Shown piece by piece: positions 663-19,281 of a DNA stretch of 20,826 nt (positions are counted from its first letter, which is position 1; each line of letters starts with the position of its first letter). This DNA is from a virus. The translations under genes were made by a program, and so were the position numbers. The stretch is from IMG/VR virus record IMGVR_UViG_3300010354_016726, positions 1 through 20,826 of that record; one strand, written 5' to 3'. The notes below the pieces were generated by a model. That model searched no databases. It had not been told where the DNA came from and saw only the letters and a program-made list of their open reading frames with translations.

Positions 663-1559
663 TTAGCGAACGACTCTACGGCGGTTGCTAGAAGATGGTC
701 CGCCACCGCGATTCATAACTGTGTCGCCAACTCCATAAACTCCGTAATTATTTGTCCATGAAGTTGGGCTTTGTCCGGGACCAAATCCTGGAGGAGCAGC
801 ACCGTATGTTGCGATATAAAGACCTAGATCATTTCCATTAATGATTCCATCACCATTTAAATCTGTTAATGGTGGTAGATCCACTCCACCTTGGCTTCCT
901 TGGCTTCCTTGGGCGCTGCCAGTCGTATCCACGTCTGGTCTTCTATATGCAGGATTTGGTCTTGGTGCGGGACCAGTAGTTTCAGAAGCTCCTCTTGGTC
1001 TATTTGAAGATTGAGGATTTGCGGCGGTATATGCTGCAAAGCTTGCAGAATTGTTACCAGATCCCATGCTCCAGTTATTGATTACTGAAGATGCATTTTG
1101 GCCACCACCAAGTTGTAGGCCGAGATCAGCGCCATTTACTACACCATCATTGTTTAAATCCCCTGCTAAACCACCTGATGGTCTGCTAAATGTATCTGCT
1201 TCTCCTGCAACAGATCTGCGACCACGTAAAGTTGAAGAAGATTGTGCTGAAACTGGTGCATAAGCTCCACCAAATTGACCACCCCAATTTGAAGTGACAT
1301 TTGTTGAAGCTTGATTTTGGCCGAGAGCTAGGCCCAAGTCTGCGCCTGTTACAAGTCCATCGCCATTATAGTCACCTGGAATAGATTGTCCAGGTCTAGC
1401 AAATGAATCTGCAGGTCCAGCTACACGACGACCAGAACCGTAACCAGCATTGTAGGTGGTCATGGATTCATTGATCATGCGGACTTGATTTTCTAGGTAA
1501 TTAGCTCTAGCTTGGAGCTGTTCCGATAAATTTTTATAATAGTTTGTTAGATAATTCAT
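663..1559 (-). CDS. Dockerin-like triple-repeat protein, probably virion-associated (298 aa)
   Basis: The N-terminus (residues 1-31) is a helical leader with YYKNLSEQLQ, similar to the start of the 180-aa protein at 10058-10600. It ends MINE|S, which fits a T4-type prohead protease site. The rest is Gly/Ser/Asn/Pro-rich and carries three dockerin type I/EF-hand-like calcium loops (D63-N65-D67-D74, D134-N136-D138-D145, D233-N235-D237-D244), each continuing into DLGL. The first two sit in longer repeats starting GRR.VAG.AD.F.RP. The C-terminus is basic (RRRVVR). The start has an AAGGA ribosome site and an upstream AATAAATA octamer. Function is unknown; calcium-dependent structural or adhesive roles are inference. 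GC content is higher than in neighbours (30 of 60 bases in 1381-1440). Confidence 0.85.
   Translation of the reverse strand: MNYLTNYYKNLSEQLQARANYLENQVRMINESMTTYNAGYGSGRRVAGPADSFARPGQSIPGDYNGDGLVTGADLGLALGQNQASTNVTSNWGGQFGGAYAPVSAQSSSTLRGRRSVAGEADTFSRPSGGLAGDLNNDGVVNGADLGLQLGGGQNASSVINNWSMGSGNNSASFAAYTAANPQSSNRPRGASETTGPAPRPNPAYRRPDVDTTGSAQGSQGSQGGVDLPPLTDLNGDGIINGNDLGLYIATYGAAPPGFGPGQSPTSWTNNYGVYGVGDTVMNRGGGPSSSNRRRVVR
810..1373 (-). repeat. Three dockerin-like calcium-loop repeats within one gene
   Basis: The calcium-loop cores map to 1323-1373, 1110-1160 and 810-863. Each encodes GD/TD-x-N-x-DG-x-(V/I)-x-G-x-DLGL. The first two copies share long flanking similarity, while the third is preceded by a Ser/Gly/Gln triplet repeat (SQGSQGSQGG, about 889-915). 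Confidence 0.75.
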
Positions 1560-3131: not shown

Positions 3132-5435
3132 TTATTTTATTGTTCTTCTAAGAGTTTCAATAAGTTGAGTATCGCCTCTTAGTAAAGTTCCATTTATATT
3201 TCTGCCAGTTAATCTCTTAAATTCTGCAGCAATTTTTCTTTCTCTTGAGGCTTCACTAAAAGCTCTTCCTGCAGATTCACCAGAATAATCAAAGTTTTCT
3301 GGTTCTTGATTTTTAAGATTATTCAACATTTGTTGTTTAACTTCTTTTGGAAGATTTTTTAATTCTCTACCAAATTCTTTTTCAAACTCTGTATCAACTG
3401 AACTTGTTTGTAGTTGTGGTTCAACAATAATCATTGGACTACCACCCCAACTTGAAGTTGGTTGTTTTATTTCTTCTGGTGAAAGTTCCATTGGTTTATT
3501 CATTGGTACTTCTTCAATCGGCCTATCTTCTATTTTTGAAAATCTTTTTCTATTTTTATTATATCTGTCTATGGATGCTGCAACATCAAATGGAACTGTA
3601 GAGCTTTTATCAAATTTTTTACCTGATGTCTCGGGTGCCATTTTTGGTGAAATTATATCCATTGGGTTTGGATAACCAAATCCCTCAAAATCTGCTAACT
3701 CATTATCTTGAGCTGACTGGGGAATTACACTCCATGATTTAGTACCTTTATCAAATTTATGTGTCGTTTTCCATTTTCCTTTTTGTTTTGTAAATAACAA
3801 ATCCCCTTTGCGAACAACTGCTCCATCCTCAGCTTCTTCCGTTGGTACTGTAGGTTCAAATTGACCTCTTTGAACATCTGAGTCCGCTCTACTTAAATAT
3901 GCAGTTTCTATTGGAGCTGGAGCTGGCTCCGGTGCTGGAGCTGGCTCATAATAGGGTTCTGGCTCTGGAGCTGGTGCTAATTCAAAAGGTTCATCAATAA
4001 CAACTTCATATCTTACATTTGGATCTGGAGGTGAGTAGTTATAAAGAATTGGAGACTGGCCTCTTTGTACATCTGGATCTGGCATAGCTCCAGTAGCTTC
4101 TGGAGAACCATAAAGTTTAATTCTGTCAGCAACAGGTGTGGTAGACATTAAATTTTGTTTCATAAAACTTTTAGCTTGTGCTAAAACATCTTTTGTCTTT
4201 TTTGCTGCAGATTTATCTAATGATTTTAAAATATTTGTTAAACCCTGAGAAGGTTTTTCTGGTTCTGGGGCTGGTGCAGGTTCTGGGGCTGGTGCAGCAT
4301 CATATGCAGAATCCGTTTGAAACTCTGGATAAATTGGAAATTGCCCTCTTTGTACATCTGGATCTGCATAATTAATTGGAAATGGTGTTCCAGCAGGAAT
4401 TTCAACAGATTTTGGTTGTTCTGGTTTGGTGGTTGCTGGTTTTTTAGCTAACGGTTCTGCAACTGCAGCTTGAGGTTTTTTTTCTTTTCCATCTCTGTCA
4501 GTGGCATAATTTACACCTTGCATATAAAGTTTTTCACTTTGACTCATTCTATCTTTGTTATATTTTCCTGGACTTAATTTTCCAGCACCTGCCATGTTTA
4601 TTACAATATTTCTATCGGTGTTACTCTTAAAATCATAATCTCTACCAGTCAGTTCTTTAAAATCACCATAAGTCATGCTAGAACCGCTAATAAATTCTTT
4701 TTGTTTTTCTATTTCTCTTTTTTCTGCTTCTTCAGGAGTTGGTTCAAAAACAGCATATGGGCCAACCATTTCTGGTCCCTCTCCGGTAGCATAACCTGCA
4801 GATGGTCCACGATATCTGCCCAATCTCCAAGTCATTTTTGGCTCTTTTGCTTTTGCTTCTTTTGATAATCTATCCATTTCGGATCTTAGCTTTTCAGTAA
4901 AACCTACGTCTGTTAATGTATCAATTAGATCCGGTCTTTCATAACCAAGCTCAGTTTCAACTCTAGTTTTTATACTTGGATCTTGGCGCATTTGAAATGT
5001 AGCAAAATCCAATCTAGCCATATCTGATCTATCTAAAGTTTGGAATCCTGTGCTAAGATCTCCTTCTCTAATTTTTTTGCTTAATTCACCTAAAACTTTA
5101 GCAACAGATTTTACAGTCTCATCTCTTCTCTGCTCTCGTCTGATTTCTCTTTCTGCTGGGGTAGAGGGTCTTGGTTTTGTTTCTACGGTTGTTGCCCTAA
5201 CTGGTGAAGGTGTTCTAGAAGTAGTTTCTATTTCTTTCCAAGGAGCGCTAGCTGGCTCAGAACCAAGATTTCTTAATCTTTCTGCTTCTTCCTCTGCTCT
5301 TTTATCATAATTTGACTGCGGTGCAAGCTGGGCACCACCACAAACCCCCATTGGTGAGCCACCCCAAGCTGTTTGATCGACACCACCATCTTCTACAATT
5401 AAACCACTTACGATAAAATCTGTTAGTTTTTTCAT
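3132..5435 (-). CDS. Large Pro/Ala/Glu-rich repetitive protein, probably virion-associated (767 aa)
   Basis: The N-terminus MKKLTDFIVSGLIVE|D resembles a T4 capsid-targeting leader. Most of the chain looks disordered and charged. Three copies of D-x-DVQRGQ occur at about residues 355, 451 and 516, separated by AP/EP runs (PAPEPAPAPEPEKP and similar). The motif WGGSPM appears near both ends (near the N-terminus and about residue 660). A compact basic stretch near residue 540 (KGDLLFTKQKGKWKTTHKF) looks folded. The ATG lies 1 nt after the stop of the 222-aa gene, which carries the operon's late promoter. I recognise no enzyme domain. An internal capsid or tail-associated protein is inferred. 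Confidence 0.85.
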   Translation of the reverse strand: MKKLTDFIVSGLIVEDGGVDQTAWGGSPMGVCGGAQLAPQSNYDKRAEEEAERLRNLGSEPASAPWKEIETTSRTPSPVRATTVETKPRPSTPAEREIRREQRRDETVKSVAKVLGELSKKIREGDLSTGFQTLDRSDMARLDFATFQMRQDPSIKTRVETELGYERPDLIDTLTDVGFTEKLRSEMDRLSKEAKAKEPKMTWRLGRYRGPSAGYATGEGPEMVGPYAVFEPTPEEAEKREIEKQKEFISGSSMTYGDFKELTGRDYDFKSNTDRNIVINMAGAGKLSPGKYNKDRMSQSEKLYMQGVNYATDRDGKEKKPQAAVAEPLAKKPATTKPEQPKSVEIPAGTPFPINYADPDVQRGQFPIYPEFQTDSAYDAAPAPEPAPAPEPEKPSQGLTNILKSLDKSAAKKTKDVLAQAKSFMKQNLMSTTPVADRIKLYGSPEATGAMPDPDVQRGQSPILYNYSPPDPNVRYEVVIDEPFELAPAPEPEPYYEPAPAPEPAPAPIETAYLSRADSDVQRGQFEPTVPTEEAEDGAVVRKGDLLFTKQKGKWKTTHKFDKGTKSWSVIPQSAQDNELADFEGFGYPNPMDIISPKMAPETSGKKFDKSSTVPFDVAASIDRYNKNRKRFSKIEDRPIEEVPMNKPMELSPEEIKQPTSSWGGSPMIIVEPQLQTSSVDTEFEKEFGRELKNLPKEVKQQMLNNLKNQEPENFDYSGESAGRAFSEASRERKIAAEFKRLTGRNINGTLLRGDTQLIETLRRTIK
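4261..4296 (-). repeat. Tandem 18-bp repeat encoding an Ala-Pro-Glu-Pro run
   Basis: Two identical 18-bp units (4261-4278 and 4279-4296, plus-strand ggttctggggctggtgca) encode part of an Ala/Pro/Glu run. Related units lie near 3915-3975. A separate 22-bp identical direct repeat at 4060-4081 and 4345-4366 encodes DPDVQRG. Confidence 0.8.
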
Positions 5436-9115: not shown

Positions 9116-9539
9116 TTGATGGGTTATTTAATTTTCTGTCAACTCTTGGATCTGTGTTTATTTTATTATATTCCGCTTCGGGTATATTTTTTACTGAAAA
9201 ATTTAAATATACTAAAAATGATTTTAAGTAAGAATGCAGTCTTGGTTCAAGCTTAAAAAATAAAATTCTTGCACAATTTTCTTCACCAAATACATTTTTT
9301 AATATTATTATATGGTTGTTAATTAGACATTCTCTAATTGACTTTAAAGTTTTATATTTGTGAATTTTTTGAATTAATCTTTTAACGTATTTTATACGTT
9401 TTAAATCATCAGTAAATTCATTTTTACCAGAACAATCTGGATTAAAATAATGTTCTTGACAAAATTTTAAAAAAACTTCTTCTGTTAAAGGTTGTTTTAA
9501 TTTTTTATTATTGACATCCACAATTAGAGCTCTCAACAT
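9111..9539 (-). CDS. Conserved T4-like phage protein of unknown function (142 aa)
   Basis: The core reads FTDDLKRIKYVKRLIQKIHK, then a helix IRECLINNHIIILKNVFG, a segment ARILFFKLEPRL and SYLKSFLVYLNF. From memory this order (FxxDLxRxKYxKRL / LxNHxIxLxNVFG / RxLFxKLE / LKxFLxYLN) is that of a small helical family widespread in T4-like phages of aquatic bacteria, whose function I do not know. It overlaps the upstream 175-aa gene by 32 nt, implying translational coupling. A Cys pair (FCQEHYFNPDCSG) near residues 26-36 is notable but does not make a full zinc site. Confidence 0.8.
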   Translation of the reverse strand: MLRALIVDVNNKKLKQPLTEEVFLKFCQEHYFNPDCSGKNEFTDDLKRIKYVKRLIQKIHKYKTLKSIRECLINNHIIILKNVFGEENCARILFFKLEPRLHSYLKSFLVYLNFSVKNIPEAEYNKINTDPRVDRKLNNPSI

Positions 9540-10035
9540 TATCAGGAAGTATCACCATTTGAACTCTTCTTAAATGATTTGGTTGTTTAACAACATTGAT
9601 CACCAAGTTTAATCCATGACCTAATTTTTCTGTAATACCATCTTGTGAGAATCCAACTTCATCAACATTTTGATATGGAGTCATACCATAAACTCCAATT
9701 TGTGGACTGCCGTATTGGTATAATTTAATTTTTGTTTCGCCATCTGGTACAGAAGAAGTATATTGAAAATCAAAACCAAAGTGATTTAATTTTTGACGAA
9801 CTACGTTTAGTACAGAGTCTGGATCAACAAAATCTTTTTGTCCCATTGCATAAAGTAATGCATTAATAGCATCCAAAGAACGCGGAAGCTTAATATTAAA
9901 GGTTCCCTTATCAGTTAGAGTGCTTGGCAAACGTGGAGCAGATGGGTCGCCAATAAACAATCCACCACCCTGGGTATGCTCGCCAGAATTTTCATAAATT
10001 GGCCCAATAATTTGTAATAGTTCTTTGAATTTCAT
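9508..10035 (-). CDS. Unknown phage protein, candidate virion component (175 aa)
   Basis: Residues 1-15 form a leader-like helix (MKFKELLQIIGPIYE|N) resembling a capsid-targeting sequence. A Gly-rich turn follows (GEHTQGGGLFIGDPSAPRLP), then a mixed alpha/beta domain with SLDAINALLYAMGQKDFVDP and a hydrophobic strand near the end (HLRRVQMVILP). The protein ends in NCGC. An ACTAAATA octamer lies 9 nt before the ATG. The tight overlap with the conserved 142-aa gene suggests linked roles. I cannot name the family. Confidence 0.75.
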   Translation of the reverse strand: MKFKELLQIIGPIYENSGEHTQGGGLFIGDPSAPRLPSTLTDKGTFNIKLPRSLDAINALLYAMGQKDFVDPDSVLNVVRQKLNHFGFDFQYTSSVPDGETKIKLYQYGSPQIGVYGMTPYQNVDEVGFSQDGITEKLGHGLNLVINVVKQPNHLRRVQMVILPDNVESSNCGCQ

Positions 10036-10057: not shown

Positions 10058-10600
10058 TTAACGACGCTTTTTATCATACCAAACACTCCAATCGGGCGTT
10101 TGATCGTGGAATTGGTCCAGTGGATCGGGAATATTAGTCCAAGGTCTGTCTGTATCGAATATGGATGGTCCTTTAATTGGAGTATTTTTCCCTGGAGTTT
10201 CTGGAGTTGGTGCACGTTCTATATCTGGCACAAATCCACTACCACGTTCAGGTAACTGAGGTCTTGGTTGATTAGGTTGATCTATACCTGGATAATATCT
10301 TGGATCCGCCCCATCAACCGGCCTACAATTTATACATGGAAAATCAACTGGCCATCCAAAAGTATTGCTAACATAATGTTTAGTTATAGGATAACCCTCT
10401 ACTGGAAGATTGCCCATTCCTTTGCCTGGAAGTGGATTACCAAATGTTGTATTTAACCAGTTGACTGAAGCATCTAGAACGTCTCCAACCGGATCAAATC
10501 TTTCTGGAGGAATAAAATTTCTATCATATAATTCTATTAATTTAATTTTTTTTTGTAAATTTTCACATAAATTTTTATAATATTGTATTTTGTTGGGCAT
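10058..10600 (-). CDS. Pro/Gly-rich protein with conserved helical leader (180 aa)
   Basis: The leader (IQYYKNLCENLQKKIKLIE, residues 5-23) is clearly like that of the dockerin-like protein (YYKNLSEQLQ...). The remainder is Pro/Asp/Gly/Trp-rich and probably extended (FGWPVDFPCINCRPVDGADP, RPQLPERGSGFVPDIERAPT, TPDWSVWYDKKRR). A CxxC pair (CINC) lies near residue 90. An exact TATAAATA octamer ends 5 nt before the ATG. No enzyme motif is seen. A late structural or packaged protein is the likely class, by leader and promoter. Confidence 0.8.
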   Translation of the reverse strand: MPNKIQYYKNLCENLQKKIKLIELYDRNFIPPERFDPVGDVLDASVNWLNTTFGNPLPGKGMGNLPVEGYPITKHYVSNTFGWPVDFPCINCRPVDGADPRYYPGIDQPNQPRPQLPERGSGFVPDIERAPTPETPGKNTPIKGPSIFDTDRPWTNIPDPLDQFHDQTPDWSVWYDKKRR

Positions 10601-10605
10601 AAAAT

Positions 10606-10613
10606 TATTTATA
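10606..10613 (-). promoter_or_regulatory. T4-type late promoter octamer TATAAATA
   Basis: This exact octamer is followed by ATTTT and the ATG at 10600. The stop codon TAA of the upstream 385-aa gene (10609-10611) lies inside it. Confidence 0.7.
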
Positions 10614-11766
10614 ATCTTTTATTTTGATAATGAAGTATGTTATATAAATTTGGATTGTATTTTTTATTGTTTATAGATTTTACAATATTATCTGCTATGT
10701 CTTCTGAAATTGCTTTCCATTTCCCACCTTTACTCTTATAGCATTTTGCAGCCCACGCATTAGCATAAGCAGAAGGATAAACATCAAATTTTTTCTTAGC
10801 TTGAGCAATACAAGAAGACCATTTTTTTGGGTTTTTGGCTTTATTTTTCTTTGCTTCATCCAAACAGAGAACTTCTTCTTTTAACATTGAGCTTACTGGT
10901 GTGGAACTCCAAGTCTTGCAAGCCCAGTAACGAGCTTTCCAACGTGGTCCAGGATTATCACAGTTGTGCCTTGCTCTAAAATTTTTACGCCTAGCTGGAT
11001 CATCACGCTTAATTTCCATATTTGGGTCGCCAAAATTTACCTTTACAACATTTCCTTTATCATTCTTTACATAAACTTTATATTTTTTAACGTCACCGCG
11101 CATTATTTTATTAAGTTTAACTTTTGCTTTTTCGCTTTCGTGTATTTCTATTTTATCACCATATTCATTATATGAAGTTTCTTCTGTATTATCAATAAAT
11201 CCCATAACAGTTTCTGGCAAAAAATGCTCTTCATATTCATTTCCATTTTGATCTGTCATTCCAATTATATGATATTCATCACCTTCAGTGATATAATCTA
11301 TATCAAAAATATCTCCAGATTCATTGATTATAATATCACAAGGTAAAAGTTCACTTACTGAAATTGTTGGGAAAGACATTTCAAAAATATGTGAAAGACT
11401 TTCTACCAAAAATAAATCAAATGATTCTTTTACTTCTGTAACTCCAGTTTTTACAAAAACTGGTTTCTTTCCTTTACCTTTTACAGAACCTTTAGTTCCA
11501 CGGCCAGCTTTTTTTTGTGCAACTCTTTTACGTCTAACAAAAGAACCAATTTTTTCTTTTCCTAATAATTTTGCTTTTTGCTTACTTAAACAAGCGGAAT
11601 AGGATTCACCTTCTTCAGCATCACCGCATTTTCCAACTCTTTCTCCTTTAGTATTGTAGCGATCCCATCCAGGACCACCGCCGGCTGATTCTTTGTTAAA
11701 CCATTTGCCAAGTCCTGATTTTGCAAATACTTTTTCTAAAATTGGTTCAATGCGTTTATTGCTCAT
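10609..11766 (-). CDS. Modular basic protein with DUF5872-like and related phage modules (385 aa)
   Basis: ATG at 11766 is chosen. It overlaps the upstream stop as ATGA and has AAGGA six nucleotides before it; an in-frame TTG six bases earlier is less likely. Residues 19-107 (GKWFNKES, KCG, SACLSKQKAK, GSFVRRKRVAQKKAGRG, KPVFVKTG) match the basic DUF5872-type module of many aquatic phages. Residues 112-225 are acidic and folded. Residues 226-286 (KKYKVYVKNDKGNVVKVNFG, RRKNFRARHNCDNPGP, RYWACKTW) and 305-352 (KKWSSCIAQAKKKFDVYPSA, YANAWAAKCYKSKGGKWK) resemble further Cys/Lys-rich phage modules. The basic ends suggest DNA contact in the capsid. Function is inferred from composition only. Confidence 0.8.
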   Translation of the reverse strand: MSNKRIEPILEKVFAKSGLGKWFNKESAGGGPGWDRYNTKGERVGKCGDAEEGESYSACLSKQKAKLLGKEKIGSFVRRKRVAQKKAGRGTKGSVKGKGKKPVFVKTGVTEVKESFDLFLVESLSHIFEMSFPTISVSELLPCDIIINESGDIFDIDYITEGDEYHIIGMTDQNGNEYEEHFLPETVMGFIDNTEETSYNEYGDKIEIHESEKAKVKLNKIMRGDVKKYKVYVKNDKGNVVKVNFGDPNMEIKRDDPARRKNFRARHNCDNPGPRWKARYWACKTWSSTPVSSMLKEEVLCLDEAKKNKAKNPKKWSSCIAQAKKKFDVYPSAYANAWAAKCYKSKGGKWKAISEDIADNIVKSINNKKYNPNLYNILHYQNKRL

Positions 11767-14183
11767 TTCCAATCCTTATCCTGTTTTTCACCTTTTTTGT
11801 GACCATTATCAGATCTATTGTCTGATTTATGCCGTAGACGTAAATTATTTATACCATTTGAACCACCGCTCCGCAATGGTTTTTTATGGTCTACATCCAT
11901 ACTAGAACCTTTTTTAACTTTGCCATTTTTAATTAAGGCTTCTCTTGCTGCAGTTCTTTTTGCTCTTTCTTTTCTTTGTTTTGCTTTTCCGTGATAATTT
12001 CGATATTCCATTTTATAATCACGTTGGTATTTTTCATTTAATTGAAATGCATTTAAAACATATAAAAAAAGTTTTGGTTCAGCTTCAGCTCTTTCTACTA
12101 AATTTTTATAAATTATTTTTAATCCATCAGTATTTTCATTTAACATTTTTGGATTTGTCATCCAATTTGCTTCATTTGATGTAATTAATTTTGTTTTTAC
12201 AAGTTTTGATAAAATAAAATTATTAGATAAAGCTTCAATTAAAATATCATTTGCTATTATTGCAACAGATTCTTGAAGTTCTAAAGCAATAAGCTCTGTT
12301 TTTTCTACCGGAATTTTTATAGTTTTCTTTCCAATTTTAATGTAATTGTATTCTATAACATTTAAATCTTTTGGTGAAAAACCAGGTAAAAGACTTACAT
12401 TTATATCAAAATCCATATTTTGAGAAGCCTGACTTAAAGCTAATTGTATTGGATCTATTGTATCCTTAGATACAAATAGTGATTCGATACTTGGTTTTTC
12501 CGGTTCCTTTTGCTCAACAACAGTTAAAAATTTATTCATCAAAGCCGATTTTTTATCTGTGCGGGAAATATTGTCTGTGCTGCTTTCTGCTTTTACTGGC
12601 TTTACTTCTATTGTAGCAGTTCTTGAAACTTCAGAAAAATAAGAATCGGTCATTGGAAAAATACCATTTTGAGTAATTAAATGGTTTGGAGCAGTTTTTG
12701 GATCTTTGATTATATCTCCACGATAATAAATTTTTAGTATATTTTGAACAAATAAGTCTGCAAATTCTGATGGATTTTTGCTAGTATTTTTAAATAATTT
12801 TGTTGTAGCTTTTGATAAAGTATCTCGATAAGTTTCAAAAGATGCAAATTTGTTAAGTTTGCCGTTTTGATCTACTACTGGTCCTAATTTTTTACCTGAT
12901 GAATCTGTTAACTCTATTGTTTGAAGTTGAGAAAGCAATTCTGGATCTTTTTTTGCAGTCTCAAAACTTTCTCTACTCATTAACATATTTCCATATGAAG
13001 AAGAAATACTTTGAGCTTCTTTTGCAAATCCTTGCATTTTAGGATCTCTAGCAATTCCTGGATTTTGTAGTGTTTGTGTTATAGCTGCATTCAACAATCC
13101 ACGGAATACTTTTGATTTTTGATCAAATTTATCGGTAGTAATTAAAAACTCACCACCAGCTGAAATTTTAAATTTGTAATCTCCACATTCCATATCTACC
13201 GCACCCTCAGCAGCCGTTGGCTGAGATCCGGTTTCAGCAGCAGATATTAACTTTTGAATACACTCTTCTCCCATTTGGGATAATATTTTTCTTGCTTGAG
13301 AAAAGGCTATTTTTGTAAATTCTAATGAATTTGGAGCAATAGCTGCATATGATTGTATTTCTTGATCAGATGCGCCTGCTTTAATTTTAGCTAAGAAAAT
13401 TAAAGCATTAATTACTTGTTGATTGTATGGAACAGCAGTTAGTGTGTTAATACCAAATACATTAGTTAATTTTTCAAATGTCAATGAATCAAATGTTGTT
13501 CCAGATGTTGGTTTTCTTGTTTGCATGAAATACTCTTGGCGTATTTCAAATGGAACTTGACTTAATTGTTCTGGTGTCATCTGAGACATGGCCATAAAAA
13601 TTTCTTCTTTTGAAAGTTTTTTGGCTTGTTTTTTTTCTTTTGGAAGTTCACCATCCTGCTGCTTTAAATCATCCGGCTCACCTCTTGCAGCAACTTCCTT
13701 CTTCGGCTGTTCTTTGGTGGTTACTGTTCTCTCTTTTGTCGTTTGTGATTGTTCTTTTCCTGCACCCCGTTGCTGTGGTGCTGTGGTTTTTTGTTTTACA
13801 TCGCCAAATAATAATTTGGATGCACCGGTTTGTTCAAAACTTGGTTCTCTTGTATATGTTTTAGCTTCTTCATAAGAAAGCTGTTCACTTTTACTAAGTT
13901 TAGTATGTTTGCCTTTATCAAAAGAATCTTTAAAAATTAATTGAACTCTTCCGCTTTGAGTTTTTACGGGAGTAATTTCTTTTACTAGCTCTTCCTTGGA
14001 CTTTTGTGCTCTTGGAGTTTGTCTAGATCTTTCAGCACGTTTTCTCGCAGCATCTTTAGCTTTTTTATCCGAAGAACCAGCAATAGCTCTTTCTTTTTTA
14101 ATGGCTTGGCCAGTAGTTCGGAAAGAATCTGCCTTGGTGCGAGAATCCTCAACTAGATGATATAAAAAGTCCCTTAAGTTCAT
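11763..14183 (-). CDS. Large protein with leader, basic N-terminus and HNH-like C-terminal motif (806 aa)
   Basis: The leader MNLRDFLYHLVE|D resembles the T4 capsid-targeting sequence. It is followed by a Lys/Arg/Ser stretch (KKAKDAARKRAERSRQTPRA), a Gln/Lys/Glu-rich linker and a long helical middle (residues ~190-710). The last ~100 residues are basic and contain DVDHKKPLRSGGSNGINNLR with downstream HKSDNRSDNGH, an HNH-like metal motif (D765-H766 plus Asn and His residues). The stop overlaps the next start. A CATAAATA octamer framed by a 7-bp inverted repeat precedes the ATG. A packaged protein with nuclease-like tail is inferred; activity cannot be judged. Confidence 0.8.
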   Translation of the reverse strand: MNLRDFLYHLVEDSRTKADSFRTTGQAIKKERAIAGSSDKKAKDAARKRAERSRQTPRAQKSKEELVKEITPVKTQSGRVQLIFKDSFDKGKHTKLSKSEQLSYEEAKTYTREPSFEQTGASKLLFGDVKQKTTAPQQRGAGKEQSQTTKERTVTTKEQPKKEVAARGEPDDLKQQDGELPKEKKQAKKLSKEEIFMAMSQMTPEQLSQVPFEIRQEYFMQTRKPTSGTTFDSLTFEKLTNVFGINTLTAVPYNQQVINALIFLAKIKAGASDQEIQSYAAIAPNSLEFTKIAFSQARKILSQMGEECIQKLISAAETGSQPTAAEGAVDMECGDYKFKISAGGEFLITTDKFDQKSKVFRGLLNAAITQTLQNPGIARDPKMQGFAKEAQSISSSYGNMLMSRESFETAKKDPELLSQLQTIELTDSSGKKLGPVVDQNGKLNKFASFETYRDTLSKATTKLFKNTSKNPSEFADLFVQNILKIYYRGDIIKDPKTAPNHLITQNGIFPMTDSYFSEVSRTATIEVKPVKAESSTDNISRTDKKSALMNKFLTVVEQKEPEKPSIESLFVSKDTIDPIQLALSQASQNMDFDINVSLLPGFSPKDLNVIEYNYIKIGKKTIKIPVEKTELIALELQESVAIIANDILIEALSNNFILSKLVKTKLITSNEANWMTNPKMLNENTDGLKIIYKNLVERAEAEPKLFLYVLNAFQLNEKYQRDYKMEYRNYHGKAKQRKERAKRTAAREALIKNGKVKKGSSMDVDHKKPLRSGGSNGINNLRLRHKSDNRSDNGHKKGEKQDKDWK

Positions 14184-14204: not shown

Positions 14205-14783
14205 TTAAGGGTCTAAAGGATTATAAAGTTTTAGCCCTTTATGGCTTTTTACTTTTCCTGTAGCTACTTTATACAAAGTAGATTTGTCAAGATTATTAAT
14301 TTTGGCAAATTCTGCAATATTTTCAACAATTAATATCTCTTTTGTGCTAATATTTTGAAATGTAGCGCCATTATAGCTTTTAATTTTAATTGGTTCCGGT
14401 TCTTTTTCCTTTATATGTGAACCAACTGTTTCTTTAACTTCTCTTAATTCAACTGCAGTCCACCCTTTATAAGTTTTACGCTTTCCATTTAAAAGTTCAC
14501 AAATTTTAACTGCTGTTAATCCGTGTTGTTCCCCAAACTCTTTCATACTTTCAAAAAATACTTCTTGACCAGTATCAACTCTTTTTAGTTTGTAGCCATT
14601 TTTTTCTTTAACGGCACTTACCCATTTCCAATATTTTCCCTCTAGTTCAAAAAATCCACCATTTTTTGCAATAAAATCATTCCTAAACCAAGCAGATCTA
14701 GAATTATCGTTCATTCTAGTCCAAAGAAAAGAGTATTTTTTATTTACTTGTTCTTCAAGGGTTTTTAAGATTTTTATTTCCAT
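14205..14783 (-). CDS. Protein with two tandem NUMOD-like DNA-binding repeats (192 aa)
   Basis: Residues 68-110 and 143-187 are two copies of one module: (T/S)(G/K)xEI/V-F/V...EFAxxxxL....I/L Y/C..(L/A)xGKxKxxKGW/L. This is the helix-turn-helix pattern of NUMOD1/IENR-type repeats, which contact DNA in homing endonucleases. The N-terminal ~65 residues (FLWTRMNDNSRSAWFRNDFI, YWKWVSAV) are Trp-rich and unassigned. No GIY-YIG, HNH or LAGLIDADG catalytic motif is visible. The gene overlaps the exonuclease gene upstream by 29 nt. A sequence-specific DNA-binding protein, possibly a homing-endonuclease derivative, is the most likely identity. Confidence 0.7.
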   Translation of the reverse strand: MEIKILKTLEEQVNKKYSFLWTRMNDNSRSAWFRNDFIAKNGGFFELEGKYWKWVSAVKEKNGYKLKRVDTGQEVFFESMKEFGEQHGLTAVKICELLNGKRKTYKGWTAVELREVKETVGSHIKEKEPEPIKIKSYNGATFQNISTKEILIVENIAEFAKINNLDKSTLYKVATGKVKSHKGLKLYNPLDP

Positions 14784-15417
14784 AATTTATTATTGCCTTT
14801 TTTAATTTTTTAACATATTTAATTGGTTTATCTTGAAATACCTGGCGCAATCCATCTTCACATGCAATTAAAATTACAAAATTATCAATAACTATTCCAG
14901 TTCTCTCTTGATACATTAAAGCATAAGCAGTTGCCTGTGTAAAATAATTTTCAATATCTTGTTTTCTTTTTTCTTTAGTGCTAGCTTTAAAATCTATGAT
15001 AGAGAGTTTTCCATCATATTCTGCTATACAGTCTGTCCTGCCAGCTAAACCTAAAATTTTAGACCACAGAGGTGTTTCTAACGCTACAATATTATTAATT
15101 TTGTCTATTTCTGGTTTTAATAATAAAAACAAAGACTTTAAATTTGAATTTTCATCATCCAAATTTAAAGTCTCATTATTTAAATATTTTTCTATTAAAC
15201 TATGAAATTTTGTCCCTCTTGAAGTAACCCTTTTACTTTCTTCTGGATTTTTTGATCTCCATTCAGAAAAAAACTGTTGTTTTTCAAATCCCACAACAGT
15301 TGTTACACTTGGAAAGTCTCCATCTGGAGTTGTGTAAAATCTAGATCCATTTTTTTGGATTTCTTTTAATTCTACCGATGGTATAATATTAGATAAATGT
15401 ATAAATGATTGTGTCAC
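14755..15417 (-). CDS. PD-(D/E)XK exonuclease, MGME1/RecB-like family (220 aa)
   Basis: Motifs in order are SVTTVVG (37-43), RGTKFHSLIEKYL (67-79, H72), GRTDCIAEYDGKLSIIDFKA (126-145; metal residues D129, D142 and Lys K144) and YFTQATAYALMY (158-169, Q161). This is the usual order of PD-(D/E)XK nucleases of the RecB/MGME1 type, which are common in phages as single-strand DNA exonucleases for recombination or genome processing. Length fits a single-domain enzyme. The start is GTG at 15417, because an in-frame TAA lies just upstream and no nearby ATG exists. It is coupled to the NUMOD-like gene downstream. Confidence 0.85.
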   Translation of the reverse strand: MTQSFIHLSNIIPSVELKEIQKNGSRFYTTPDGDFPSVTTVVGFEKQQFFSEWRSKNPEESKRVTSRGTKFHSLIEKYLNNETLNLDDENSNLKSLFLLLKPEIDKINNIVALETPLWSKILGLAGRTDCIAEYDGKLSIIDFKASTKEKRKQDIENYFTQATAYALMYQERTGIVIDNFVILIACEDGLRQVFQDKPIKYVKKLKKAIINYGNKNLKNP

Positions 15418-17315: not shown

Positions 17316-17626
17316 TTTTTTACATTATTGAAAGGATTAGTTGTAATATTTTTAGTATAAGCTTTCATATTTGGTGCTTGTTTTTTTGTAGCATCAATGA
17401 AAGAACTAATGTTATTAACAACTGAATTTTTAACATCATTTGAGCTGTTTACTATACGAGCTTTATCCTCATAAATATTTGGACCAGCTTTATTGATCGG
17501 TGAATTTATTACACTATTAATAGTAGATTTAAGACCATTTTGTGGTACACTTGGAGCTGGCGTAGGTTTTTTGCTCAAAAAATCCTTGACTTGCCAAAAA
17601 AATTGTTTATTCTTATTATTATCCAT
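17312..17626 (-). CDS. Small Asn/Lys-rich protein of unknown function (104 aa)
   Basis: The ATG at 17626 is preceded by a TCTAAATA octamer 10 nt upstream. The N-terminus (NKNKQFFWQVKDFLSKKPTP) is basic with an aromatic patch, followed by an Asn/Ser/Val-rich low-complexity middle (NSVINSPINKAGPNIYEDKA) and a Lys-rich end. No signal peptide or known motif is seen. It heads the minus-strand run of coupled genes down to the exonuclease and overlaps the 333-aa gene by 4 nt (ATGA). Confidence 0.7.
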   Translation of the reverse strand: MDNNKNKQFFWQVKDFLSKKPTPAPSVPQNGLKSTINSVINSPINKAGPNIYEDKARIVNSSNDVKNSVVNNISSFIDATKKQAPNMKAYTKNITTNPFNNVKK

Positions 17627-17636
17627 GGCTGTAAAA

Positions 17637-17644
17637 TATTTAGA
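17637..17644 (-). promoter_or_regulatory. T4-type late promoter-like octamer TCTAAATA (minus)
   Basis: A 7/8 match, 10 nt before the ATG at 17626. With the plus-strand octamer at 17649-17656 it forms a second divergent late promoter pair. Confidence 0.5.
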
Positions 17645-17648
17645 TTTA

Positions 17649-17656
17649 CATAAATA
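17649..17656 (+). promoter_or_regulatory. T4-type late promoter-like octamer CATAAATA (plus)
   Basis: A 7/8 match, 10 nt before the ATG of the HNH gene at 17667, with a weak AGAAG ribosome site in between. Confidence 0.5.
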
Positions 17657-17666
17657 CTTAAGAAGT

Positions 17667-18164
17667 ATGAAGAAACAGGTACTCCTGTTGAATCAAGACA
17701 ATACGCCCTTGAATATCATTACGATTTCAAAGGCATTTAAATTACTCACTAAAGATAAAGTGTGGGCAGATGAAACTACTGGTGAATACTATGAATTAGT
17801 TTCTGTTTCTAAAATTGTTAAAATTCCCAAAATTTTAATTCTTAAGTACTACGTAAAACTTCCATATAAAAAAGTTCCAGCAACCCGCAGAAATGTTTTT
17901 CATAGAGATCAGTATGTTTGCCAATACTGTGGTTTAGATCTTTGTGATAAAACAGCTACAGTAGATCATATAGTTCCTAGATGTAAGGGCGGAGGCTCAA
18001 CTTGGACTAATATGGTAACGGCATGTAAAAAATGCAATTTGGCAAAAGGAAATAGAACTCCCAAAGAGGCCAAGATGCCAATTAAAAATAAACCAAAAGA
18101 ACCATCTTATGGGTTCTTATTTGACCACATGCTAATTAGTTTTAGGAAAACAAAAAATGCCTAA
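17667..18164 (+). CDS. HNH endonuclease (165 aa)
   Basis: The start is ATG at 17667 (MKKQVLLLNQDNTPLNIITI). The open frame from 17493 is antisense to another gene and lacks the promoter. The C-terminal half is a classic zinc-ribbon HNH domain: CxxC at 85/88, DHIVPRCKGG at 100-109 (general base H101), N115, and CKKCN at 120-124 giving the second CxxC. Residues 1-70 resemble the N-terminal part of the widespread McrA-like phage and bacterial HNH family (NxxxxPLNxxxxxKAxxLL.K.KV). Such enzymes nick or cut DNA in packaging, recombination or homing. The gene is coupled to the zinc-ribbon gene by an 8-nt overlap. Confidence 0.9.
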   Translation: MKKQVLLLNQDNTPLNIITISKAFKLLTKDKVWADETTGEYYELVSVSKIVKIPKILILKYYVKLPYKKVPATRRNVFHRDQYVCQYCGLDLCDKTATVDHIVPRCKGGGSTWTNMVTACKKCNLAKGNRTPKEAKMPIKNKPKEPSYGFLFDHMLISFRKTKNA

Positions 18165-18464: not shown

Positions 18465-18761
18465 ATGAAATACAATGTTCAAAAAATTATAATGAAAAAT
18501 ACAAATGTGTATAATTTTTTACACGAAAGCGAATTGCTGGGACATTTAATTGATAATGGTGATTCGCAGGTCTTGATTCCTGTTTCTGATATCTCTATAA
18601 TTCCAATCGTTGAGTCTTTTAATTTTAGTGGCGATTGTTGGTTAATTGAAAATGGCGAGTATAAACTAATAACTTTAAACCCAGTTCCAATTTTAGAACC
18701 AATTTATGAATTTAAAGTTATCAATCTTTCTGACAATCTTTTAAGTGAATCAGAGACTTAA
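18465..18761 (+). CDS. Small unknown acidic protein (98 aa)
   Basis: It starts ATG 18465 (MKYNVQKIIMKNTNVYNFLH), 5 nt after a late-type octamer. The protein is mixed alpha/beta with hydrophobic strand-like pieces (QVLIPVSDISIIPIVESFNF) and an acidic end. No known motif, signal peptide or membrane helix is visible. Its last 41 nt overlap the converging RuvC gene on the other strand, so transcripts of the two genes are complementary there. Family not recognised. Confidence 0.7.
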   Translation: MKYNVQKIIMKNTNVYNFLHESELLGHLIDNGDSQVLIPVSDISIIPIVESFNFSGDCWLIENGEYKLITLNPVPILEPIYEFKVINLSDNLLSESET

Positions 18762-19281
18762 GAATAAAATAACTGTCTATAATGTCAGTAACAGGATTGT
18801 TTAATTTTTCTTGACCAAATTTGTGCATTAAATTTATTCCCGTCTCTGCTGTAAAAGCATTAAACATTGCTTCTTTATCTGCATTTCCTTTACCAGTAGC
18901 TATCTTTTTTGCCCTAGATGGTTCTATCACTGTAACCGGTATAGCTGCTTTATAGAGCTTGTGTTTAAGTATACCCATATTCTCGGCTAGATTGAATACT
19001 CGGCCTTTGGAGCCAAATGAATAGCCTTCTACTGCAACGTCAGAGGATCCTATGCATAGATTCATAGCCCAATCTGATATGGTGTCAAATCTATCAACAT
19101 CCTGTACATATTCTTGAAAACTTTCACCAGTAATATTTGGTAAAATTTTATCTGCAAATTTTTTAGTGTTAGTCAGATAATAAAAAAAACAATTATCAAA
19201 TTTAAATGGTTGTCTTTCGTCGTATAAACAAAGACATGGGCAGGTTATAGAATAGTCAATGCCAACTAACATGGTGAACAT
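18721..19281 (-). CDS. RuvC-like Holliday junction resolvase (186 aa)
   Basis: The RNase H-fold resolvase signature is present. A first strand carries the catalytic Asp (LVGIDYS, D9), a second acidic residue lies in VAVEGYSFG (E85) followed by FNLAENMGILKHKL, and C-terminal acids occur in NNPVTDIIDSYF (D166, D169). Length fits the RuvC family. The enzyme would resolve branched replication or recombination intermediates before packaging; T4 itself uses endonuclease VII for this. The first ATG (19281) lies only 3 nt after an exact TATAAATA octamer, so ATG at 19272 (MLVGIDYS) is the more likely start. Confidence 0.85.
   Translation of the reverse strand: MFTMLVGIDYSITCPCLCLYDERQPFKFDNCFFYYLTNTKKFADKILPNITGESFQEYVQDVDRFDTISDWAMNLCIGSSDVAVEGYSFGSKGRVFNLAENMGILKHKLYKAAIPVTVIEPSRAKKIATGKGNADKEAMFNAFTAETGINLMHKFGQEKLNNPVTDIIDSYFILKSLIHLKDCQKD

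Follow-up and report, generated by a model that had tools for sequence, protein, structure and literature searches.

In phage T4, the prohead protease gp21 cuts after L/I-X-E, the ten N-terminal residues of the internal protein IPIII suffice for packaging, and foreign nucleases fused to IPIII or to its leader have been engineered for packaging and delivery; gp21 also processes the C-terminus of Alt (PMC9026906). For the T4-like cyanophage S-CREM2, virion mass spectrometry has been published (PMC10665884, Table 3). In the open-access literature, with subscription papers outside the search, a natural internal protein that joins such a leader to an HNH domain is not described. Most internal proteins of the T4 type have no known role, and a cargo with a recognisable enzyme domain therefore makes delivery, target and self-protection testable. 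Here we report an 806-aa viral protein that begins with a predicted capsid-targeting leader and ends in an HNH domain, and which we read from its sequence, with a probability of roughly 0.6, as a head-internal nuclease carrier that gp21 would process and that would reach the host together with the genome.

The window, that is, the whole stretch of DNA analysed, is a 20.8-kb virus record (IMG/VR IMGVR_UViG_3300010354_016726, positions 1–20,826). The 806-aa ORF occupies 11763..14183 on the minus strand according to ORF calls and full-length relatives, and the ORF list bears out the sequence-only reading, which had singled out 11763–12050, in placing that segment at its C-terminus. Its stop codon and the start codon of the gene that follows (10609..11766, minus strand) overlap in ATGA, and the following gene carries a KKFDVYPSAYANAWA motif in common with S-CREM2 gp160 (pairwise comparison, E 2e-5), a virion protein according to the virion proteome (PMC10665884). 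All features of the 806-aa protein given below lie on the minus strand. Behind the leader is a conserved N-terminal domain (aa 56–130, 13794..14018; mean identity 0.73 in 40 sequences) that is recognisable in distant relatives; its motif, KDSF...H...F-x-QT-x-AS, is confined to the 806-aa family among the genomes searched.

Several other genes of the window were recorded. Directly upstream of the 806-aa gene, 14205–15417 (minus strand) holds a PD-(D/E)XK (PDDEXK_1) protein and also a second one bearing an I-HmuI NUMOD-like domain, in which Pfam finds no nuclease domain. A divergent stand-alone HNH_5 gene (17625–18164, plus strand; E 8.8e-15) is conserved beside the gene block in relatives. A 186-aa protein (18721–19281, minus strand), whose match to RuvC is weak (E 0.069), is also conserved in relatives.

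The leader of the 806-aa protein is conserved across its family. It reads MNLRDFLYHLVE (aa 1–12, 14148..14183), followed by D, and fits the L/I-X-E rule of gp21; this rule and the conservation of [LI]xE underlie its prediction as a capsid-targeting propeptide cut after E12. Among 87 proteins scored, [LI]xE lies within the first 22 aa in 84/86 with complete N-termini, the other two reading VNE/A (the slash marks the predicted cut) and the remaining protein being a truncated ORF. The residue after the leader glutamate varies across the family (A/E/Q/D/S/V/K). Members carry leaders such as MNFKDLLKLTE/A, MNFTDLILKLDE/A and MNFKTLLQIINE/E, and the motif moves along with insertions, as in MNFNTFLNQIAKHAILNE/A. 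About 10% of internal windows contain a loose [LI]xE of the kind sought near an N-terminus. A leader pattern written after the 806-aa ORF had been inspected is found at 4/29 N-termini of the window, compared with about 0.9% of internal windows, and an independent, tight T4-IP-type pattern is found at 5/179 and 7/160 N-termini of two long relatives against 0.2–0.3% of internal windows. Conservation across the family and enrichment at N-termini led us to reject a chance origin for the leader.

Related leaders occur elsewhere in the window and in relatives. A 175-aa neighbour (9508..10035, minus strand) begins with MKFKELLQIIGPIYE/N and a 767-aa neighbour (3132..5435, minus strand) with MKKLTDFIVSGLIVE/D, both identified from the ORF list and the leader scan; the 767-aa protein also has repeated (D/S)DVQRGQ motifs. 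The two long relatives have many ORFs with T4-type leaders such as MKSFKEFLRE/N. A 298-aa protein (663–1559, minus strand) combines a leader-like MNYLTNYYKNLSEQLQ with three dockerin-like repeats, GDYNGDGLVTGADLGLALG, GDLNNDGVVNGADLGLQLG and TDLNGDGIINGNDLGLYIA. A second leader type of ~20–35 aa (YYKNLSEQLQ...LLE or LNE) is present in the window at 663–1559 and 10058–10600 and recurs on ORFs of relatives (L081–L087 in G002, L088–L094 in G001); by its sequence, it may be another capsid-targeting signal.

The head machinery that such leaders serve in T4 is encoded by relatives. Both long relatives encode gp21 (E 3e-39 and 1e-41) and gp23 (E 2e-135 and 3e-134), genes detected in these relatives and seen in neither case in the window itself, which is a 20.8-kb fragment. 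Comparison thus supports the capsid-type leader proposed from the sequence, as do the gp21 and gp23 genes that relatives carry. In S-CREM2, 4/5 ORFs with a T4-IP-type leader are found in the virion against 46/203 of the others (P = 0.012, one-sided Fisher's exact test, on only five leader-bearing ORFs and with ORFs rebuilt by our own ORF finder). The four are the SAM hydrolase gp6, the kinase gp14, gp136 and the cytidylyltransferase gp154; the fifth, absent from the virion, is a poor leader match by eye.

The C-terminal tail, which reads DVDHKKPLRSGGSNGINNLRLRHKSDNRSDNGH, belongs to a family of HNH proteins. Profiles, conservation and Foldseek place the HNH domain at aa 718–806 (11766..12032). 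The tail alone scores 25.5 bits with Pfam HNH PF01844, above the cut-off of 21.4, and the whole protein scores 20.9 bits, just below it. The match to phrog_4590 is nearly full-length (E = 1.9e-18, profile positions 7–91 of 100). Searches of NCBIfam with the 806-aa protein gave no match, and solved-structure profiles gave no meaningful match for the whole protein, for the HNH domain or for the related cyanophage domain described below. The tail is the best-conserved region of the protein (mean identity 0.84–0.85 versus 0.30–0.73 elsewhere, 40 sequences). D765, H766, N780 and N789 are present without exception in the 806-aa family (85/85 sequences), and D-x-D-H-K ... N ... N-R (D763, D765, H766, K767, N780, N789 and R790 in the 806-aa protein) is invariant across 25 varied phrog_4590-type HNH members. 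An HNH-like tail had been proposed from the sequence, with a His and an Asn at the extreme C-terminus completing the motif. Profile, invariant catalytic residues and homology to stand-alone HNH proteins uphold the tail itself. Catalytic His and Asn are indeed conserved in homologues (H766, N780 and N789), but the actual set is D765-H766 ... N780 ... N789, of DH-N-N type; H795, the His further downstream, is invariant in the 806-aa family and not across the wider HNH family.

Structure prediction agrees in part. Our first AlphaFold model, built from five sequences, was poor (pLDDT 57); the better model (40 sequences, pLDDT 72) has HNH strands at 762–766 and 781–785, does not predict the closing helix, and falls below pLDDT 50 at residues 790–806. 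Foldseek matches the HNH part to predicted stand-alone HNHc proteins at 38–50% identity, with a TM-score on the target of about 0.5–0.64. The domain, with a net charge of +17 over its 89 aa (718–806), is probably a basic, metal-dependent endonuclease.

The HNH tail is a constant feature of the family. We found 148 loci encoding 87 distinct proteins, all on uncultured virus contigs apart from one contig binned in a Chitinophagaceae MAG. HNH conservation is a biased measure where the search patterns lay inside the tail. The 67 loci retrieved with patterns outside it agree, the HNH tail being present in all of their proteins whose C-terminus is intact. On this evidence we rejected an HNH homing endonuclease, that is, a sporadic mobile insertion. 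The distant members L188, L190 and L210 (1015 aa) retain the tail, and L188 and L190 also retain the leader and the general layout. As judged from sequence, both the leader and the HNH tail are retained among the relatives in uncultured T4-like phages. The protein body has no tblastn match at E<=10 in 50,697 phage records. Among phage records with the same HNH domain, Zobellviridae that infect Vibrio and Salinivibrio predominate, and in them it is a stand-alone protein of ~95 aa. Among the 80 uncultured loci that match one of these most closely, most are stand-alone and most of the others belong to the 806-aa family.

Homologues of the body in cultured phages were found by profile and fold only. 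The core domain (aa 256–529, 12597..13418), defined by hhalign and Foldseek, is related by profile and predicted fold to phrog_22045 of the cyanophages S-IOM18, S-RIM50 and S-SM1: the AlphaFold model of the 806-aa protein matches two predicted 276-aa cyanophage proteins in a Foldseek viral library (E 7.4e-7 and 3.8e-6), and hhalign aligns residues 256–529 with phrog_22045 over 234 columns (Prob 94.4, E 8.4e-8 for a single comparison). Foldseek against the PDB and VIA-align gave no convincing match for the body, which may still have a known fold. The cyanophage protein differs in having no HNH tail and no clear leader, and its invariant E...EPKTD...CSxK...Q residues are not retained in the 806-aa family. 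The cyanophage gene sits between MazG and a leader-bearing cytidyltransferase, whose leader is of the same kind as that of the S-CREM2 virion cytidylyltransferase. The S-IOM18 member SWYG_00149 (L261:22179–23006) is annotated only as hypothetical. On our own reading only, the invariant residues of phrog_22045 (E9, EPKTD85 and CSxK100) resemble a PD-(D/E)XK site; Pfam and PDB profiles give no nuclease match for the 276-aa family. In our reading of the alignment, the 806-aa protein has N259 and S341/A342 where the cyanophage protein has E9 and K100, and a PD-(D/E)XK site in its core domain was therefore rejected. We also rejected a pairing of window neighbours with S-IOM18 proteins of similar length.

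Conserved [LI]xE motifs are present inside the protein as well as at its N-terminus. A scan of 84 full-length sequences found three, at E650, E683 and E717. At L681-x-E683 (12135..12143), a predicted second cleavage site, position 681 is L or I in 84/84 sequences and position 683 is E in 76/84; [LI]xE occurs within one residue of this place in 84/84, which are not 84 independent observations because the sequences share ancestry. Among 72 conserved i,i+2 pairs (both residues at least 90% conserved), L681-x-E683 has the lowest flank identity (0.28; the next is 0.52). It sits in a hypervariable loop, between two helices in the better AlphaFold model. Directly before the HNH domain, E717 is invariant (84/84) and has [LIV] two residues earlier in 67/84; the LNE at aa 715–717 (12033..12041), at the HNH junction, is a possible third cleavage site. 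The third motif, at E650, falls inside a conserved helix, and its conservation needs no special explanation. An [LI]xE motif alone is therefore no proof of cleavage, and it is possible that L681 and E683 are kept for buried structural roles. In our view L681-x-E683 and E717 are probably gp21 sites, cleavage at which would release an 89–123-aa nuclease, and the conserved sites suggest that gp21 also separates nuclease from carrier inside the head. The conserved internal [LI]xE site of the 806-aa family and the invariant E717 are new here; the sequence-only reading had not noted the internal sites.

From the observed architecture, from what is conserved (leader, internal sites, catalytic residues) and from the gp21 and gp23 of relatives, we infer packaging, cleavage, activity, ejection and target as follows. 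The N-terminal leader would place the protein in the prohead core of a T4-like phage, where a gp21-type protease would remove the leader after E12, leaving aa 13–683 as the packaged carrier. A second cut after E683, perhaps also after E717, would likely free the HNH domain inside the head as a protein of 89–123 aa, about the size of its stand-alone relatives. Carried into the host along with the DNA, the freed nuclease would cleave the host's own or competing DNA at an early stage of infection. More tentatively, the protein may be a packaged nuclease precursor, its carrier holding the HNH domain inactive or in place until the protease frees it in the closed head at L681-x-E683. If so, an enzyme dangerous to the phage's own DNA would be made only once it is sealed for delivery. 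The conserved internal site further suggests a role for prohead proteases beyond the removal of leaders, in that they may detach packaged enzymes from their carriers.

We weighed two other roles for the tail. It might act in assembly and not in the host, aiding the packaging motor or trimming branched or damaged DNA as the head fills, with the body tethering it inside, much as the HK97 HNH protein GP74 promotes cos cleavage by terminase (PMC9410871). Beyond that precedent, a number of the stand-alone relatives sit with late or structural genes: ICP2 gp12 adjoins a tail protein, and a pelagiphage match overlaps features annotated as scaffolding protein and as HNH endonuclease. Cleavage at the internal [LI]xE sites, however, would part the nuclease from the body while still in the prohead, as one would expect for release more than for tethering. 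T4-type headful packaging is also not known to require an HNH partner, and we consider an assembly role unlikely. Somewhat less likely again, the tail could be a basic module that binds or condenses DNA, with HNH residues kept for a metal-bound structure and not for cutting. T4 internal proteins are basic, as is this domain, and its catalytic region is modelled at low confidence. Against this stands the invariance of the general base H766, of the metal ligands D765 and N789 and of N780; D-x-D-H-K ... N ... NR, unvaried in 25 members, exceeds what DNA binding needs.

The leader, too, could be no packaging signal at all, and the protein a cytoplasmic enzyme of late infection. The background frequency of loose [LI]xE leaves room for this, but no complete relative has lost the motif despite indel shifts, neighbouring genes bear similar leaders, and the S-CREM2 virion is enriched for the products of leader-bearing ORFs; we regard it as improbable, more so than either alternative role for the tail. 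The delivered, head-internal nuclease carrier is the reading we prefer, and the sequence-only idea of a packaged, delivered nuclease is thus supported in part.

The HNH domain has its counterpart in phrog_4590, which includes Vibrio phage ICP2 gp12 and Salinivibrio phage CW02 gp36 and resembles the tail over its whole length, with the same invariant residues. Those proteins differ in being free, 76–97 aa long and without a leader at most of the 80 loci, whereas here HNH is the C-terminal domain of a leader-bearing protein. A virion nuclease of a T4-like phage has been annotated in S-CREM2: gp12, a protein of 869 aa, is annotated as a Cas9-like nuclease, was detected in the virion (28 unique peptides), and has a leader-like LRFASFMAE/A near its N-terminus, outside our counting rule. 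The annotated start (L296:4205–6814) puts LRFASFMAE/A at residues 17–25, and the true start may be an internal codon. Sequence comparison found no homology between gp12 and the 806-aa protein, and since Pfam finds no HNH domain in gp12, its nuclease nature is the authors' annotation alone. A further likeness is to the internal head proteins of T4. IPI, IPII, IPIII and Alt share with the 806-aa protein a short N-terminal leader ending in [LI]xE, of 10 residues in the T4 internal proteins and 11–12 in the 806-aa family and not identical between them; the 806-aa protein differs in its HNH cargo, and no sequence relation was found between the bodies. The C-terminal processing of Alt by gp21 parallels what we propose for the 806-aa protein. 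If a natural leader-nuclease is indeed conserved in many uncultured T4-like phages, evolution has reached the design engineered in T4 through the IPIII leader.
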